64,000 bases of DNA from Alphaproteobacteria bacterium (lineage in GTDB: Bacteria > Pseudomonadota > Alphaproteobacteria > Micropepsales > Micropepsaceae): positions 13,510-77,509 of the forward strand of contig PLJH01000028.1 in NCBI GenBank assembly GCA_003139615.1, read 5' to 3'. The notes beneath the pieces are model-generated. The model saw only the letters and a program-made list of their open reading frames with translations, ran no database searches and was not told the origin of the DNA. The position numbers and the translations under genes are program-made. Below, in pieces: positions 3,159 through 8,976 of this stretch (positions are counted from its first letter, which is position 1; each line of letters starts with the position of its first letter).

Positions 3159-3295
3159 ATTCTCGACAGCACTGGACATGTGCGCCGCAATATTCAAGCC
3201 GTCCTTCGCAAAATGTTTCGTCCAGTGCGGCATGGCTTTGTCCGGAGCCATCCCTATATTCCCTCGTGAAAGAATCCTCAGGGAGGGCTGCCCAA

Positions 3296-5308
3296 GTGGA
3301 TTTGTCCAGGTTGAATTATCTCGCTGCGCACAGTTCGTTTCTTGACGCGTTGCTGATTGCGCTGTTGGTCGTTTTTGTCATCATCCTGATGAAGTCGACG
3401 CGAAACATCGGGCCGACGGAAGTGGGTCTGGTGCGCAAGCGTTTCGGCTCGCGCAAGCTCACGGGCGGCAATGCCGTCGCATTCGATGGCGAGGCCGGCT
3501 ATCAGGCGAAGCTGTTGCATCCGGGGTTGCAATTCAAACTGTGGCCGCTCTTCGACGTGACGCGCCATCCGATGGTGCAGATTCCGGCAAATCAGATCGG
3601 TGTTGTGATCGCGCAGGTGGGCGAGTCGCTTCCGGTGGGCGCGAAGTCCGGCGTCTACAAACCGGAATTCGGCAACTTCCAGGACATCGCGACCTTCGTC
3701 GCGAAAGGCGGACAGAAAGGCGTGCAGCGCCCCGTCCTGCCGCCCGGCACGGTCGTGCCGATTCATCCCGTGGGCTTTCTCGTCATCACGCGCAGCACGG
3801 TGTTCGGTGTTCCCATCGACGAAGAATATGCGCGCCTGGAATCGCGCGGCGGCCTCAAGCCTGCCTCCTTCGGGCTTCCCGATTCGAAACTGCAGGTCGT
3901 GCATATCGATCCGTCCGTCAGCGACGGCGGCAAGATCGTCGACATGATCGGCATCGTCACGACCTATGAAGGCCCGCCATTGCCCAAGGGCGCAATCGCG
4001 AACCGCATCGGAGATTTCGAAGACATCGCGGAGATGGAATCGAAACCCGCGACCAAGGACAGCGATCTCATCGAGGCGATTCTTTCGGTCAAGAACGAGG
4101 TGCACAACAACTACCAGGATTTCCAGGCGTTCCTCGATCACGGCGGCCGTATCGGCATCCAGCACGATCCGCTGATGTATGGCGCCTACAACCTCAATCC
4201 GTTCCTCGTCTCGGTCGAACTTGTTCCCATGCTCGTCGTCAATCAGGGCGAAGTGGCCGTGATCAAGGCCTATGTCGGTCTCGCGACGGAAGACACCTCG
4301 GGAGTCGATTTCAAGTTCGGCTCTCTCGTGCGCCCCGGACATCGCGGCATCTGGCAGGAGCCGATCCGCACGGGCAAATATGCTATCAATCCGCGCTGCT
4401 ACAATGCGGAGATCGTGCCCACTTTCATTCTTACTCTGAACTGGGCCGATGCGTCCTCCTCGGCGCACAATCTCGACAAGGGATTGAAACAGATCACCGC
4501 GAAGTCGAAGGAAGGCTTCGTGTTCAACATCGACCTTCAGGTGCAGATCCATGTGCCCGATACGGAAGCGCCGAAGGTGATTTCTATCGTCGGCACCATG
4601 CTCAATCTCGTGAACGAGGTGCTGCAGGCCGCGGTCGGCAATCATTTCCGCGACAAGCTGCAATCCATGCCGGCAATCGATTTCATCGAGAAGCGCCAGG
4701 AAGTGCAGGCGCAAGCCCAGGCGCACATCACCGAGAAGCTGAAGGAATACCGCGTCGAGACGCGCGGCGTTTACATCCAGGACGTGATCTTTCCGCAAGC
4801 GCTGGTCGACGTGCTCACCTCGCGCGAAATCGCCAACCAGCAGAAGGAAACCTACAAAGCCGAAGAGCAGGCGCAGGGCCAGCGTCTCGTGCTCGAACAG
4901 GCGAAAGGCCGGGCGGACATGCAGGCCGATCTCGCCAAATCGTCTGTCGGCATCGACATCGCCAAGAACAAGGCCCAGGGCGTCCAGGCGGAAGCGGACG
5001 GCGAATCCTATCGTCTCGACAAGGTGGGCCGCGCCAGCGCCGCCAAGACGGAGGCCGAAGGGCTCGCGATCGCGAAGGGCCTCGAGGCGCAGCAGCAGGC
5101 CATCGGCAAAGACCAGGCGGCCCTGATCAATGCCATTCGTGCGCTCGCGGCCGGCGGACAGCGCTTCATGCCGGAGAATCTGTCGGTGACGGTCGGCGGC
5201 GAAGGCGGCCTCGGCGCGAACGTTAATGCGCTCGTGCCACTGATCATGAGCCGCCTGCAGCGCGCCACCCCGCCGGAGACTGTCGAACCCGCGCCTCCGG
5301 CGTCGTGA
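3296..5308 (+). CDS. SPFH/Band 7 (flotillin-like) membrane protein
   Basis: About 670 residues. An N-terminal membrane segment (LLIALLVVFVIILM, roughly residues 18-31) is followed by a long SPFH/prohibitin region and a C-terminal Ala/Glu/Gln-rich coiled coil (QAQGQRLVLEQAKGRADMQA, then EAEGLAIAKGLEAQQQ) as in flotillins and YuaF/YqiK-type scaffolds. Such proteins organise membrane microdomains and affect proteolysis and stress responses. The GTG at 3296 is preferred because GGGAGGG lies about 10 bases upstream and the product then begins just before the anchor; an in-frame GTG at 3266 would add ten residues. No NfeD partner is adjacent, which is unusual for some classes but not for all. Confidence 0.82.
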   Translation: MDLSRLNYLAAHSSFLDALLIALLVVFVIILMKSTRNIGPTEVGLVRKRFGSRKLTGGNAVAFDGEAGYQAKLLHPGLQFKLWPLFDVTRHPMVQIPANQIGVVIAQVGESLPVGAKSGVYKPEFGNFQDIATFVAKGGQKGVQRPVLPPGTVVPIHPVGFLVITRSTVFGVPIDEEYARLESRGGLKPASFGLPDSKLQVVHIDPSVSDGGKIVDMIGIVTTYEGPPLPKGAIANRIGDFEDIAEMESKPATKDSDLIEAILSVKNEVHNNYQDFQAFLDHGGRIGIQHDPLMYGAYNLNPFLVSVELVPMLVVNQGEVAVIKAYVGLATEDTSGVDFKFGSLVRPGHRGIWQEPIRTGKYAINPRCYNAEIVPTFILTLNWADASSSAHNLDKGLKQITAKSKEGFVFNIDLQVQIHVPDTEAPKVISIVGTMLNLVNEVLQAAVGNHFRDKLQSMPAIDFIEKRQEVQAQAQAHITEKLKEYRVETRGVYIQDVIFPQALVDVLTSREIANQQKETYKAEEQAQGQRLVLEQAKGRADMQADLAKSSVGIDIAKNKAQGVQAEADGESYRLDKVGRASAAKTEAEGLAIAKGLEAQQQAIGKDQAALINAIRALAAGGQRFMPENLSVTVGGEGGLGANVNALVPLIMSRLQRATPPETVEPAPPAS

Positions 5309-5346
5309 TCGGGCACGCGGTGCAGAGCAGCGTCTGATGCAAACAA

Positions 5347-5488
5347 TCCCCTCGCCCGCGAAGCGACAGCGAAGCGTGGGGAGGTCGAGGTAGCGACAGC
5401 GTGCCGAGCGGGTGGGGACGCGCGCGTCCGCGCGCGAAAGACTCTTTTATTTGCCCCCACCCTAACCCTCCCCACAAGGGAGAGGGGA
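5347..5488. repeat. Intergenic palindromic GC-rich repeat (family R, copy 2)
   Basis: A 140-base imperfect palindrome beginning CCCCTCGCCCGCGAAGCG and ending in CTCCCCACAAGGGAGAGGGG, with an internal GGGGAGGTCGAGG matching the core of the other copies. It fills the gap between the flotillin-like gene and the Kir-like gene and could act as a terminator or an mRNA-stabilising structure. It is more diverged than the copies at 8986 and 55217. Confidence 0.6.
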
Positions 5489-5569
5489 AATTCCGTTCTA
5501 TGCAAAAAGGTTCTCGTTGGGGAAACTCTGCTATAAGCCGGGCGAGCCCGGTCGAGATCAGCTGACTCC

Positions 5570-6490
5570 ATGACAATTCCATCGCGCCATCCGCATCACG
5601 CCCAGCATGTGGAGAACAAGCTGCCGCCTCCGCGCTATGTCAATCCGAATGCACGCCCGCGACGCGCCGTCGTCAAAGGACAGGACAGCTCACGCTGGAC
5701 GGACGTCTATCATGTCGTGCTGACGGCGCCGTGGTGGCTTTTCTTTCTCGGGCTTCTGGCGCTCTTCGGTTCGTTGAATTTGTTTTTTGCCTCCTTTTAC
5801 GTGTTCGATCCGCACGGTATTTCGAATTCACGGCCGGGCTCGTTCTGGGATGCGTATCTGTTCAGCGTGCAGACCATCGCCTCGGTCAACAGCGAGATGC
5901 TGGCGCAGTCGACCTATGTCAATATCGTCGTGTCGTTCGAGGCTTTTTTCGGCATTCTTTATATGGCGACCGTGACGGGCGTCATGTTCGCCCGCTTCTC
6001 GCGGCCCTATGCGCGCGTGCTCTTCAGCAAGGTCGCCGTGATCGCGCCGTTCGACGGCGTGCCGACTTTGATGTTCCGCGCCGCCAACCAACGTGGCAAC
6101 CAGATCTTCGATGCGTCGGCGAGCGTTTCGCTGGCGCGACAGGCGACGACGCTCGAAGGCGTGACCATGCGTCGGTTCGAAGAGCTGAAGGTGCAGCGCT
6201 CGCGTTCGCCGCTTTTTGCGTTGTCCTGGACCATCATGCATGTCATCGACGAAAAAAGCCCGCTTTACGGCGCGACGATCGATCAGCTTTACGACATGCA
6301 GTTCGAAATCCTGATCCTTCTGAGCGGCACGGACGACACGCTGGCCGATGTGATCTATGCGCGCCATTCCTATACGCCCGACGAAATTCTGATGGACCAT
6401 CGGTTCGTGGACGTGATCTCGGTCACGGCCGACGGCCGCCGGCAGGTCAATCTCCACCGCTTCCACGACACGGAGCCTTTGTCCGCTTGA
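5570..6490 (+). CDS. Kir (inward-rectifier)-type channel homologue lacking the GYG filter
   Basis: A 306-residue protein with KirBac layout: a short N-terminal slide helix with WTDVYH, a first membrane helix (WWLFFLGLLALFGSLNLFFA), a pore loop, a second helix (FEAFFGILYMATVTGVMFARFSRP), and a cytoplasmic beta-sandwich with the conserved FRAANQRGNQI, LTWTIMH-like (LSWTIMHVIDEKSPLYG) and ARHSYTPDEI motifs. The pore loop reads QTIASVNSEM at residues 101-110 where KirBac channels have T-x-GYG-D, so the potassium selectivity signature is absent. The IRK sandwich motifs make the family assignment solid; ion selectivity, or whether it conducts at all, is open. It lies alone between repeat copy 2 and leuD. 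Confidence 0.82.
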   Translation: MTIPSRHPHHAQHVENKLPPPRYVNPNARPRRAVVKGQDSSRWTDVYHVVLTAPWWLFFLGLLALFGSLNLFFASFYVFDPHGISNSRPGSFWDAYLFSVQTIASVNSEMLAQSTYVNIVVSFEAFFGILYMATVTGVMFARFSRPYARVLFSKVAVIAPFDGVPTLMFRAANQRGNQIFDASASVSLARQATTLEGVTMRRFEELKVQRSRSPLFALSWTIMHVIDEKSPLYGATIDQLYDMQFEILILLSGTDDTLADVIYARHSYTPDEILMDHRFVDVISVTADGRRQVNLHRFHDTEPLSA

Positions 6491-6524: not shown

Positions 6525-7130
6525 ATGGACCCCTTCACGAAACTAACCGCGGTGGCCGCACCGCTCCCCATGATCAATGTCGACACCGACATGATCATCC
6601 CCAAGCAATTCCTCAAGACCATCAAACGCACGGGCCTCGGCGGGGCCCTGTTCCATGAGATGCGCACACGCCCGGACGGCAGCGACAATCCGGATTTCGT
6701 GCTGAACAAGCCTGCCTACAAACAGGCGAAGATTCTCGTCGCCGGCGCCAATTTCGGTTGCGGTTCGAGCCGCGAGCATGCGCCGTGGGCGTTGCTCGAT
6801 TTCGGCATTCGCTGCGTGCTGGCGCCGTCGTTCGCCGACATTTTCTACAACAACTGCTTCAAGAACGGCATCCTGCCGATCCCCCTGCCGCAGGAAGATA
6901 TCGACAAGCTGATGGACGATGCAGAACGCGGCGCCAATGCCGTGATCTCCATCGATCTCGAGAAACAGGAAATCCGCGGCCCCGACGGCGGCTGCCTGAA
7001 ATTCGAGATCGATCCGTTCCGCAAGCAATGCCTGCTGAACGGCTGGGACGATATCGGTCTCACCTTGCGCAACGAGAGCCGCATCTCGGATTTCGAGGCG
7101 CACCGCAAGATGGAAAGCCCTTGGTTATGA
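6525..7130 (+). CDS. leuD: 3-isopropylmalate dehydratase small subunit
   Basis: A 201-residue swivel-domain subunit of isopropylmalate isomerase, converting 2- to 3-isopropylmalate in leucine synthesis with LeuC. It shows the family landmarks: [19 protein letters not shown] near the start, then [20 protein letters not shown], and the C-terminal [15 protein letters not shown]. Length is normal. leuC is not in the window. The stop overlaps the start of the enoyl-CoA hydratase gene (ATGA at 7127-7130), so the two are coupled. Confidence 0.96.
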
Positions 7131-7870
7131 GCGAAGACCTCGTCCTGCGCGACGAAAAAGACGGACTTTGCACGCTCACGCTCAACCGGCCGCAGAAGCT
7201 GAATGCGCTGAACTATGACGTGTTCAAGGCGCTGGCGGCCCATATCGATCATATCGAAGCCAACAGCGCGAAGATTGGCTGTGTCGTACTGCGCGGCACC
7301 GGCCGCAGCTTCTGCGCCGGTCACGATCTCGACGATATCGGCGGCGGCGGTGAAGGCGGCCATGTCGCAAGTTTCGAAAGCAGGACCATCGAGCGGTTGA
7401 GCGAATTGCCCATGCCGGTCGTCTGCGTCGTGCAAGGGCATTGTTTGACAGGCGGGCTCGAACTCGCGCTGGGGGGAGACATTCTGATCGTTGCGGAGTC
7501 AGCGAAACTCGCCGACACGCATGGCAAATGGGATCTCGTGCCTGTGTGGGGCATGAGCCAGCGCCTGCCGCGCCGGGTCGGCCGCGCCAAGGCGATGGAG
7601 ATGATGTTCACCTCGCGCACCTATTCTGGGCGTCAGGCCGAAGCGATGGGTCTCGCCAATTTCTGCGTGCCCGATGCCGAACTTGATGCGGCGGTCGATG
7701 CGTTCGTGAAAGAGGTGCTGGCCAATTCCTGGCGCAGCAACCGGGCGAACAAGAAGCTGCTCTCCGACACCGAAACGATGAGCCTGAAGGCCGCGCTGGC
7801 CCATGAGATTCACCGCAGCGAAGGTCGCGGCCCCGAAATGGTCGAACGCCTGAAGCGCATGCGCAAATGA
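7127..7870 (+). CDS. Enoyl-CoA hydratase/isomerase family protein within the leu operon
   Basis: A 247-residue crotonase-fold protein. It has [13 protein letters not shown] near the start, the oxyanion-hole loop [16 protein letters not shown], and the second helix [18 protein letters not shown], followed by [25 protein letters not shown]. Members hydrate enoyl-CoA or act as related lyases and isomerases; the exact substrate is not readable. It overlaps leuD at its start and leuB at its end, each by four bases (ATGA), so it is almost certainly translated together with the leucine genes. A link to branched-chain acyl-CoA metabolism is an inference from that position only. Confidence 0.88.
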
Positions 7871-8976
7871 ACCGTATTCTTCTTCTGCCCGGCGATGGGA
7901 TCGGTCCCGAAGTGATCGCGGAAACGCGCCGTGTGCTCGGCTGGTTCGCGCAGAACCGCAACATGTCGTTCGACATCGAGGAAGACCTCGTCGGCGGCGT
8001 GTCCTTTGAGACCTATGGCACGCCGGCCACCGACGCGATGATGGCGAAGGCGCTTGCGGCGGATGCGATCCTGTTCGGCGCGGTCGGTGGTCCGCAATGG
8101 GATCCGTTGCCGTTCGCGCAGAAACCCGAGCGCGGGCTGTTGCGCCTGCGCAAAGACCTCGAACTGTTCGCCAATCTGCGCCCGGCCCTGTGTTTCGATG
8201 CGCTGAAAGATGCGTCAACTCTCAAACCCGAAATCGTTTCAGGCCTCGATATCCTCATCGTGCGCGAACTGACGGGCGGGGTGTATTTCGGCGAGCCGAA
8301 GGAAACGACGACGCTTGCCAATGGCGAAAAGCGCGCCGTCGATACGCAGGTCTATACGACCAGCGAGATCGAACGCATCGCGAGAGTCGCATTCGAGCTG
8401 GCGCGGCTTCGCGACAAGCGCGTCGTCTCGGCCGAGAAATCGAATGTGATGGTGACGGGCGTGTTGTGGCGCGAGGTCGTGACCCGCGTGCACAAGGCGG
8501 AATATTCCGATGTCGCGCTTTCGCACATCCTCGCCGACAATCTCGCGATGCAGCTGGTGCGCAATCCCAAACAGTTCGACGTGATCGTCACAGACAATCT
8601 GTTCGGCGATGTCTTGTCCGACGAAGCGGCCCAGCTCACGGGCTCGATCGGCATGCTGCCGTCCGCGTCGCTGGGTGCGAAGGATGCAAAAACAGGCCGC
8701 CAACCCGCACTCTATGAGCCGATCCATGGCAGCGCGCCGGACATTGCCGGCAAAGGCCTCGCCAATCCTATCGCCTGCATCCTCTCGCTCGCGATGTGCC
8801 TGCGTTATTCCTTCGGGCGCATCGACGACGCGAAGCTGCTCGAAACTGCGGTCGAGCGCGTGCTGGCCGAAGGCTATCGCACCGCCGACATCATGCAGCC
8901 CGGCATGACCAAGCTCGGCACGCAGGAAATGGCGAGCACGGTGCTGAAGGCGCTGGATGCGCTGGCGGCGGGGTAG
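7867..8976 (+). CDS. leuB: 3-isopropylmalate dehydrogenase
   Basis: A 369-residue protein that oxidatively decarboxylates 3-isopropylmalate with NAD in leucine synthesis. It has [14 protein letters not shown] at the N-terminus, [16 protein letters not shown] for substrate recognition, [14 protein letters not shown], the catalytic Tyr region [13 protein letters not shown], the [20 protein letters not shown] metal/NAD motif and [18 protein letters not shown]. All catalytic motifs are intact and length matches the family. Its ATG overlaps the stop of the preceding hydratase gene. A long hairpin repeat follows the stop by about 10 bases. Confidence 0.97.

Follow-up and report, generated by a model that had tools for sequence, protein, structure and literature searches.

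Few channel motifs are as strongly conserved as the selectivity filter of K+ channels. In the weaver form of GIRK2, the exchange of a filter glycine for serine reportedly goes with lost selectivity. The filter mutation G154S of GIRK2 also led to a loss of selectivity in the simulations described in PMC9001731. Among bacterial Kir-domain channels, NirBac1.1, 1.2, and 2.1 are described as lacking TxGYG and having variable P-loops while keeping the other Kir architecture (PMC4607889). According to the same account, NirBac1.1 and 1.2 are tetrameric when purified and are permeable to Na+, K+, Rb+, and other ions (Zubcevic et al. 2015, PMC4607889), and the NirBac type is characterised by a POPG-activated flux of these cations. 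TxGYG is thus not needed for a Kir-domain protein to assemble or to conduct monovalent cations without selectivity. TbIRK of Trypanosoma brucei is another inward-rectifier relative without the classical filter; this eukaryotic, acidocalcisomal protein is reported to keep the glycines, in the form GGYVG, as well as a K+ preference (PMC5429665). The sequence of solved structure nearest to the channel studied here is that of KirBac3.1 from Magnetospirillum magnetotacticum. The two are alike in fold, pore helix, transmembrane (TM) helices, and cytoplasmic domain, but KirBac3.1 has the filter TIGYG.

The channel described below resembles the NirBac proteins in its Kir architecture without TxGYG. 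However, the P-loops of NirBac1.1 and 1.2 (Anaeromyxobacter) are described as having no K+ channel homology, whereas the pore helix of our protein is still KirBac-like, and the NirBac2.1 filter (Gemmatimonas) is given as TTGTD, whereas the filter here is S-I-N-Y-S/T or a shortened form of it (PMC4607889). Unlike NirBac, the host groups with alphaproteobacterial metagenome-assembled genomes, and GYG and non-GYG orthologues occupy one locus. The GIRK2 changes are Kir filter changes with a loss of selectivity, as may be the case here, but as described they are single mutations of a K+-selective channel, whereas the present change marks a conserved lineage. Searches of open-licence papers for non-canonical bacterial Kir filters found NirBac and TbIRK only; they turned up no description of the Asn-type filter, of this host lineage, of a graded set of filters that includes more than one shortening, or of a GYG return at a fixed locus. 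Kir-domain channels without TxGYG are thus already published (NirBac); new are the Asn-type filter, the graded filter states, the repeated one-residue shortening, and a syntenic locus at which GYG has probably re-evolved.

The Channel Gene and Its Pore Loop

The window, i.e., the whole stretch of 64,000 nucleotides that was analysed, contains a Kir-fold channel gene with the following features:

5570–6490, + strand: Kir-fold channel gene (P0001), 306 aa (open reading frame, KirBac3.1 match, and IRK_C)
5696–5725, + strand: slide-helix-like helix, residues 43–52 (AlphaFold2 model, Kir-fold position; rough boundaries, low pLDDT at residues 1–48)
5732–5806, + strand: outer membrane helix TM1, residues 55–79 (AlphaFold2 model)
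5843–5881, + strand: pore helix, residues 92–104, with Trp93 at 5846–5848 (model and alignment)
5882–5896, + strand: altered filter S-V-N-(gap)-S-E, residues 105–109; KirBac3.1 has T-I-G-Y-G-K (alignment)
5912–5998, + strand: inner membrane helix TM2, residues 115–143, with the bundle-crossing aromatic F140 at 5987–5989 (model and alignment)
6017–6478, + strand: cytoplasmic Kir domain, IRK_C, residues 150–303 (Pfam match)

KirBac3.1 was the top match in a phmmer search against solved structures (E 2.9e-65, query residues 21–300), and the protein matched IRK_C (PF17655) with an E of 1.5e-31 and 109.8 bits against a cut-off of 22.5. PF01007, the Pfam TM model, gave no match under E 0.001 in the genome search and was absent from the hmmscan matches to E 1. 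In a search of NCBIfam, neither the channel nor its SPFH-type neighbour was assigned to a family.

AlphaFold2 was run on the window protein and five named relatives and gave one usable model with a mean pLDDT of 63.5, the other four being at about 37. The model of the window protein contains a slide-like helix, TM1, the pore helix, TM2, and the Kir sandwich, and it aligned with the KirBac3.1 chain 1xl4_B over 246 residues (Z 23.1, rmsd 7.1). The two TM helices and the pore helix of the Kir fold are predicted at residues 55–79, 115–143, and 92–104, respectively. As the pLDDT of the filter stretch is below 50, the model bears on the fold and not on the pore.

A previous sequence-only reading had described the protein as a Kir relative without the K+ signature, in which TIASVN, within QTIASVN at residues 101–107, replaced GYG. 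The translation of 5870–5899, which encodes residues 101–110 (QTIASVNSEM), confirmed this heptapeptide, and the IRK_C and KirBac3.1 matches together with the S-V-N-S filter bore out the assignment. In the phmmer alignment, the window segment fsvqtiasvn.sem stands opposite KirBac3.1 FSVQTMATIGYGKL. GYG is indeed absent, but the replaced segment is smaller than proposed: TIASV pairs with TMATI of the KirBac3.1 pore loop (QTMATIGYGKL), and N107-S108 alone occupy the place of G-Y-G, leaving the window loop one residue short. By this alignment, TIASV is an ordinary pore-helix end and filter entrance, and N-S is the substitute for GYG.

A Conserved Locus

The genes that flank the channel are as follows:

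801–1769, + strand: thioredoxin-type gene (label without family match), upstream, conserved
1773–2423, + strand: LON-substrate-binding gene, upstream, conserved
2629–2988, + strand: GBBH-like gene, upstream, conserved
6525–7130, + strand: LeuD-like gene, downstream
7127–7870, + strand: enoyl-CoA-hydratase-like gene (label without family match), downstream
7867–8976, + strand: LeuB-like gene, downstream

The thioredoxin-type, LON-type, and GBBH-like genes lay upstream of the channel in this order and orientation in 19 of 20 flanks, the exception being the outgroup genome G412. All three were found at 39 of the 41 loci examined; the misses were G412 and G040, in which a contig end cuts the locus. 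The GYG and non-GYG channels are, therefore, orthologues in place at one conserved locus.

An SPFH/Band_7 protein of 680 aa (E 1.1e-21) is encoded at 3266–5308 on the + strand, between the GBBH-like gene and the channel. It looks like an unshared insertion, since it had no match in 20 related flanks at E 1e-8. The intergenic stretch 5340–5490, just 5' of the channel, holds a G+C-rich near-palindromic element resembling a dispersed repeat, of which the part at 5466–5486 has no second copy within the window when up to 3 mismatches are allowed. Elsewhere, the host also has three Ion_trans_2 channels with an intact filter, TVGYG or TLGYG, so the locus is not its sole K+ route.

Distribution of the Filter States

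Of the 69 genomes of the genus, 40 carried the gene; with genomes under 90% completeness or over 5% contamination set aside, the figure was 29 of 48. As the remaining 29 of the 69 gave no match, the gene is dispensable. It was found in 42 of 96 genomes order-wide and in 14 of 385 in the class sample, 11 of these lying outside the genus. The alignment combined 40 rows from the genus with 11 from the outgroup, one of the latter being KirBac3.1. Second copies of included loci (L031–L035, L057, L058, L061, and L064) and fragments (L045, L046, L048, and L056) were left out before the tree counts. L047, found at E 3e-4 in the class sample search, gave no match on re-examination, and the filter counts leave out G104, G158, and G163.

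GYG was present in all 11 outgroup rows. Within the genus, it was present in 11 of 40 rows; 28 had an Asn-type or derived filter (hereafter Asn-type rows) and one had GAGG. Both glycines of GYG were gone from all 28 Asn-type rows. The first was replaced by N (23 rows), A (2), P, D, or S (1 each), and the second by S (16), T (9), N (2), or A (1), i.e., by S, T, or N in 27 of 28. The tyrosine was kept in 25 rows and deleted in three, namely the window, L002, and L027. The commonest Asn-type filter is thus S-I-N-Y-S/T. An IRK_C search of the phylum matched 16 of 398 genomes, of which 15 had GYG, and the sixteenth was the window's own genome. Within the samples searched (genus, order, class, and phylum), the Asn-type filter is restricted to this genus.

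The other 39 genus orthologues are about 55–70% identical to the window protein. A sequencing error is an unlikely source of the altered filter: the frame is kept, and GYG is also missing from 27 other Asn-type rows of separate genomes, as well as from L055. Nor did the collected homologues reduce the change to a private mutation, for the nearest relatives lack GYG; GYG homologues do exist in the genus, but two of them look like returns. The check proposed in that reading, whether ASV is conserved in a subfamily, came out positive in so far as the loss of GYG is common to 28 of 40 rows, but ASV itself is not the substitute.

Three cases deserve separate mention. L055 (G059), with the filter GAGAGGEF, represents a separate second loss of GYG (GAGG) inside the GTLGYG group, and its turret is changed too. 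L027/L064 and L056 come from one genome (G004), which has a shortened filter (SSN-A) and another, fragmentary channel where a contig ends; its assembly has 8% contamination. In L016 (G028), one TAG was flagged within the aligned range, yet a 305-aa open reading frame over the pore and the Kir domain is open; the start may sit downstream of this TAG.

Pore Marks, Gate Residues, and Selection

A mark of the lineage is Trp93, near the beginning of the pore helix: it was present in 28/28 Asn-type rows and, among the GYG rows of the genus, in L049 and L050 but in 0/9 others. Residue 97 was aliphatic in all 28 Asn-type rows and F or Y in the nine other GYG rows, and residue 125 was A or G in 28/28 against S in 9/9. 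L049 and L050 have W93, A125, and an unusual R97. Ser105 was dropped as an Asn-type mark, as the outgroup GYG channel L073 (ASVGYG) has this serine too. The bundle-crossing aromatic and the R-x-x-R-P motif after TM2 are retained in both the Asn-type and the GYG sets; among the Asn-type rows, residue 140 was F in 27 and Y in one, and R142, R145, and P146 were each present in 28/28.

The dN/dS values (NG86, residues 40–146) ranged from 0.07 to 0.56 in 11 close non-GYG pairs and from 0.13 to 0.44 in four GYG pairs. For the membrane part of the window protein (L001) and L003, dN was 0.30 and dS 1.34, a ratio of 0.23 with dS near saturation; the value of 0.27 against L002 over residues 40–146 is likewise poorly estimated at a dS above 1. 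The cytoplasmic domain is strongly conserved. The membrane part is thus still constrained, and the gene is intact and under purifying selection. Meanwhile, the end branches of the one-residue-short rows (L001 0.69, L002 0.65, and L027 1.03; median 0.39) agree with partial relaxation.

Loss and Probable Return of GYG

The channel trees were built without residues 98–116, so the filter trait cannot shape them; the groups used in the AU tests were named only after the trees had been inspected. A single clade of Asn-type rows was rejected on the channel tree (AU p 0.00125; p 0.0003 without seven distant rows), but a clade of Asn-type rows together with L049 and L050 was acceptable (AU p 0.112). 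These two GYG rows fell at 100/99 into a six-row set with L023, L017, L014, and L022. In two-state models on this tree, the lnL was -19.6 when a return of GYG was allowed and -29.9 with loss only. A chimaeric origin of L049 and L050 is unneeded, as they lay inside a six-row set at 99/98 in the C-terminal tree and grouped with L023 at 98/80 in the TM tree.

The neighbour tree, made from three adjacent proteins of 39 genomes with the channel itself excluded, placed G009 and G025, the hosts of L049 and L050, in the same six-member set (100/99) and rejected a clade of five nearby Asn-type hosts without them (p 0.0002). With L049/L050 left out, the four nearest Asn-type rows were not rejected as a group on the channel tree (p 0.38) and were weakly rejected by the neighbour tree (p 0.032). 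As drawn, the neighbour tree requires 11 independent losses under loss only (lnL -21.3 against -15.7 with return), and within it the remaining GYG hosts (G026/G043/G048 and the G008 group) branch from among Asn-type hosts. Unlike the channel tree, it rejects a single Asn-type clade with G009/G025 (p 1.9e-8). Trees without the filter columns thus reject one loss without return, and the filter state has changed more than once at this locus. GYG has probably switched back at least once, the clearest case being L049/L050, which lie inside the Asn-type clade and keep its pore marks. The genus tree, built from the genus and outgroup rows, points to a putative origin separate from NirBac, out of a GYG ancestor.

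In rows of the G026/G043/G048 and G008 groups, the pore helix is of the GYG type while the remainder of the protein looks like that of Asn-type rows. In short-segment comparisons (13 to 20 columns), the pore helices of the GYG rows L019, L020, L021, L029, and L030 were 0.69–0.87 identical to other GYG sequences and 0.51–0.77 to Asn-type groups, while their flanks were mostly nearer to Asn-type rows. At this number of columns, the pattern is compatible with recombination, convergence, and retention alike. Further GYG returns, recombination of a pore module, or in-place gene transfer are possible for these groups. For the locus as a whole, the sequences suggest a tentative history, in which a K+ filter at one syntenic Kir locus may have given way to a working Asn-type (N-Y-S/T) filter of other selectivity, the filter may have lost one residue on at least two occasions, and GYG may have re-evolved from the Asn-type state at least once (G009/G025), possibly with an exchange of the pore helix plus filter in two further lineages.

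Proposed Function

The window protein has S-V-N-S in place of the TxGYG or TxGFG filter of KirBac and Kir channels and does not have the GGYVG of TbIRK; Kir architecture with a non-TxGYG filter is, in turn, the NirBac type. Our preferred reading, to which we give a probability of roughly one half, is a NirBac-like, weakly selective or non-selective monovalent cation channel gated by its Kir domain. By analogy with NirBac, the protein would form a homotetrameric Kir-fold cation channel. T-x-G-Y-G would have been replaced by the Asn-type S-I-N-Y-S/T in the ancestry of the genus, with a later shortening to S-V-N-S in the line that leads to the window. The filter would then be wider and partly hydrated, with four Asn and Ser/Thr side chains arranged around it in a ring. 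As in NirBac, it may let monovalent cations through while favouring K+ slightly or not at all, and the slide helix, the bundle crossing, and the cytoplasmic Kir domain would, by the same analogy, still gate the pore. The restricted filter alphabet (N in 23/28, Tyr in 25/28, and S/T/N in 27/28) counts for this explanation, as do the Kir fold seen by sequence and model, the retained gate residues, the dN/dS values, and the loss of selectivity in simulated GIRK2 G154S. A locus at which the filter changed to, and probably from, GYG is also easier to reconcile with a filter in use than with a dead loop. We weighted the NirBac precedent above that of TbIRK because no GYG glycine remains in the window protein. 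Against the explanation stand the long end branches, the dispensability of the gene, and the three other GYG channels of the host.

The sequence-only reading had named a non-selective, differently selective, or non-conducting Kir relative, possibly a ligand sensor. The non-selective option is favoured because of the published NirBac channels (PMC4607889); a ligand sensor or a non-conducting protein is less probable, given that residues of the membrane part and the gate are conserved and GYG seems to return. A non-conducting Kir-fold membrane sensor or scaffold signalling via its cytoplasmic domain would agree with the loss of both glycines and the shortened loop of the window protein, with the long branches of the three shortened rows, and with the other GYG channels in the host. 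We nevertheless consider it unlikely, as conservation extends to TM2, the pore helix, and the aromatic residue of the bundle crossing, the filter states cluster on N-Y-S/T without drift, and the probable GYG return in L049/L050 is hard to picture without ion passage.

A K+-preferring channel with an unorthodox filter is a still less probable alternative. It would draw on the tyrosine retained in 25/28 rows by the S-I-N-Y-S/T of the relatives and on Asn, which tolerates a left-handed backbone. Its precedent is TbIRK, for which a preference for K+ over Na+ above 7 is reported without the classical motif (PMC5429665); however, TbIRK retains its glycines, mutants of which are described as altered in conduction, whereas both are absent from 28/28 rows here and the window protein has lost the tyrosine as well. 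NirBac, as described, is the opposite outcome (PMC4607889).

The one-residue deletion and the end branch of L001 could also mark a decaying pseudo-channel, with relaxed selection in the window's own line only and no present function. The intact 306-codon reading frame, the L001–L003 ratio of 0.23 (dS near saturation), and the strong conservation of the cytoplasmic domain make this improbable. A ring of Asn is reminiscent of the Asn-lined pores of two-pore channels and NMDA receptors. Although N is the commonest filter residue (23/28) and persists in the shortened L001, L002, and L027, a new preference for Na+ or a divalent cation conferred by this ring is very improbable, since A, P, D, or S stands at the same position in 5/28 rows and NirBac1.2 is described as impermeable to Ca2+ (PMC4607889).

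Significance

Whether a channel can return to the K+ filter after leaving it is a question that this locus makes addressable. Its 40 orthologues, with GYG, N-Y-S/T, A/P/S/D, and one-residue-short filters, provide natural pairs with few other differences, which permit comparison of selectivity, assembly, and gating and a test of regained K+ selectivity. The NirBac kind, until now a handful of scattered sequences, thereby gains an evolving lineage, in which a shared change and a probable switch back form a natural experiment on the evolution of ion selectivity.
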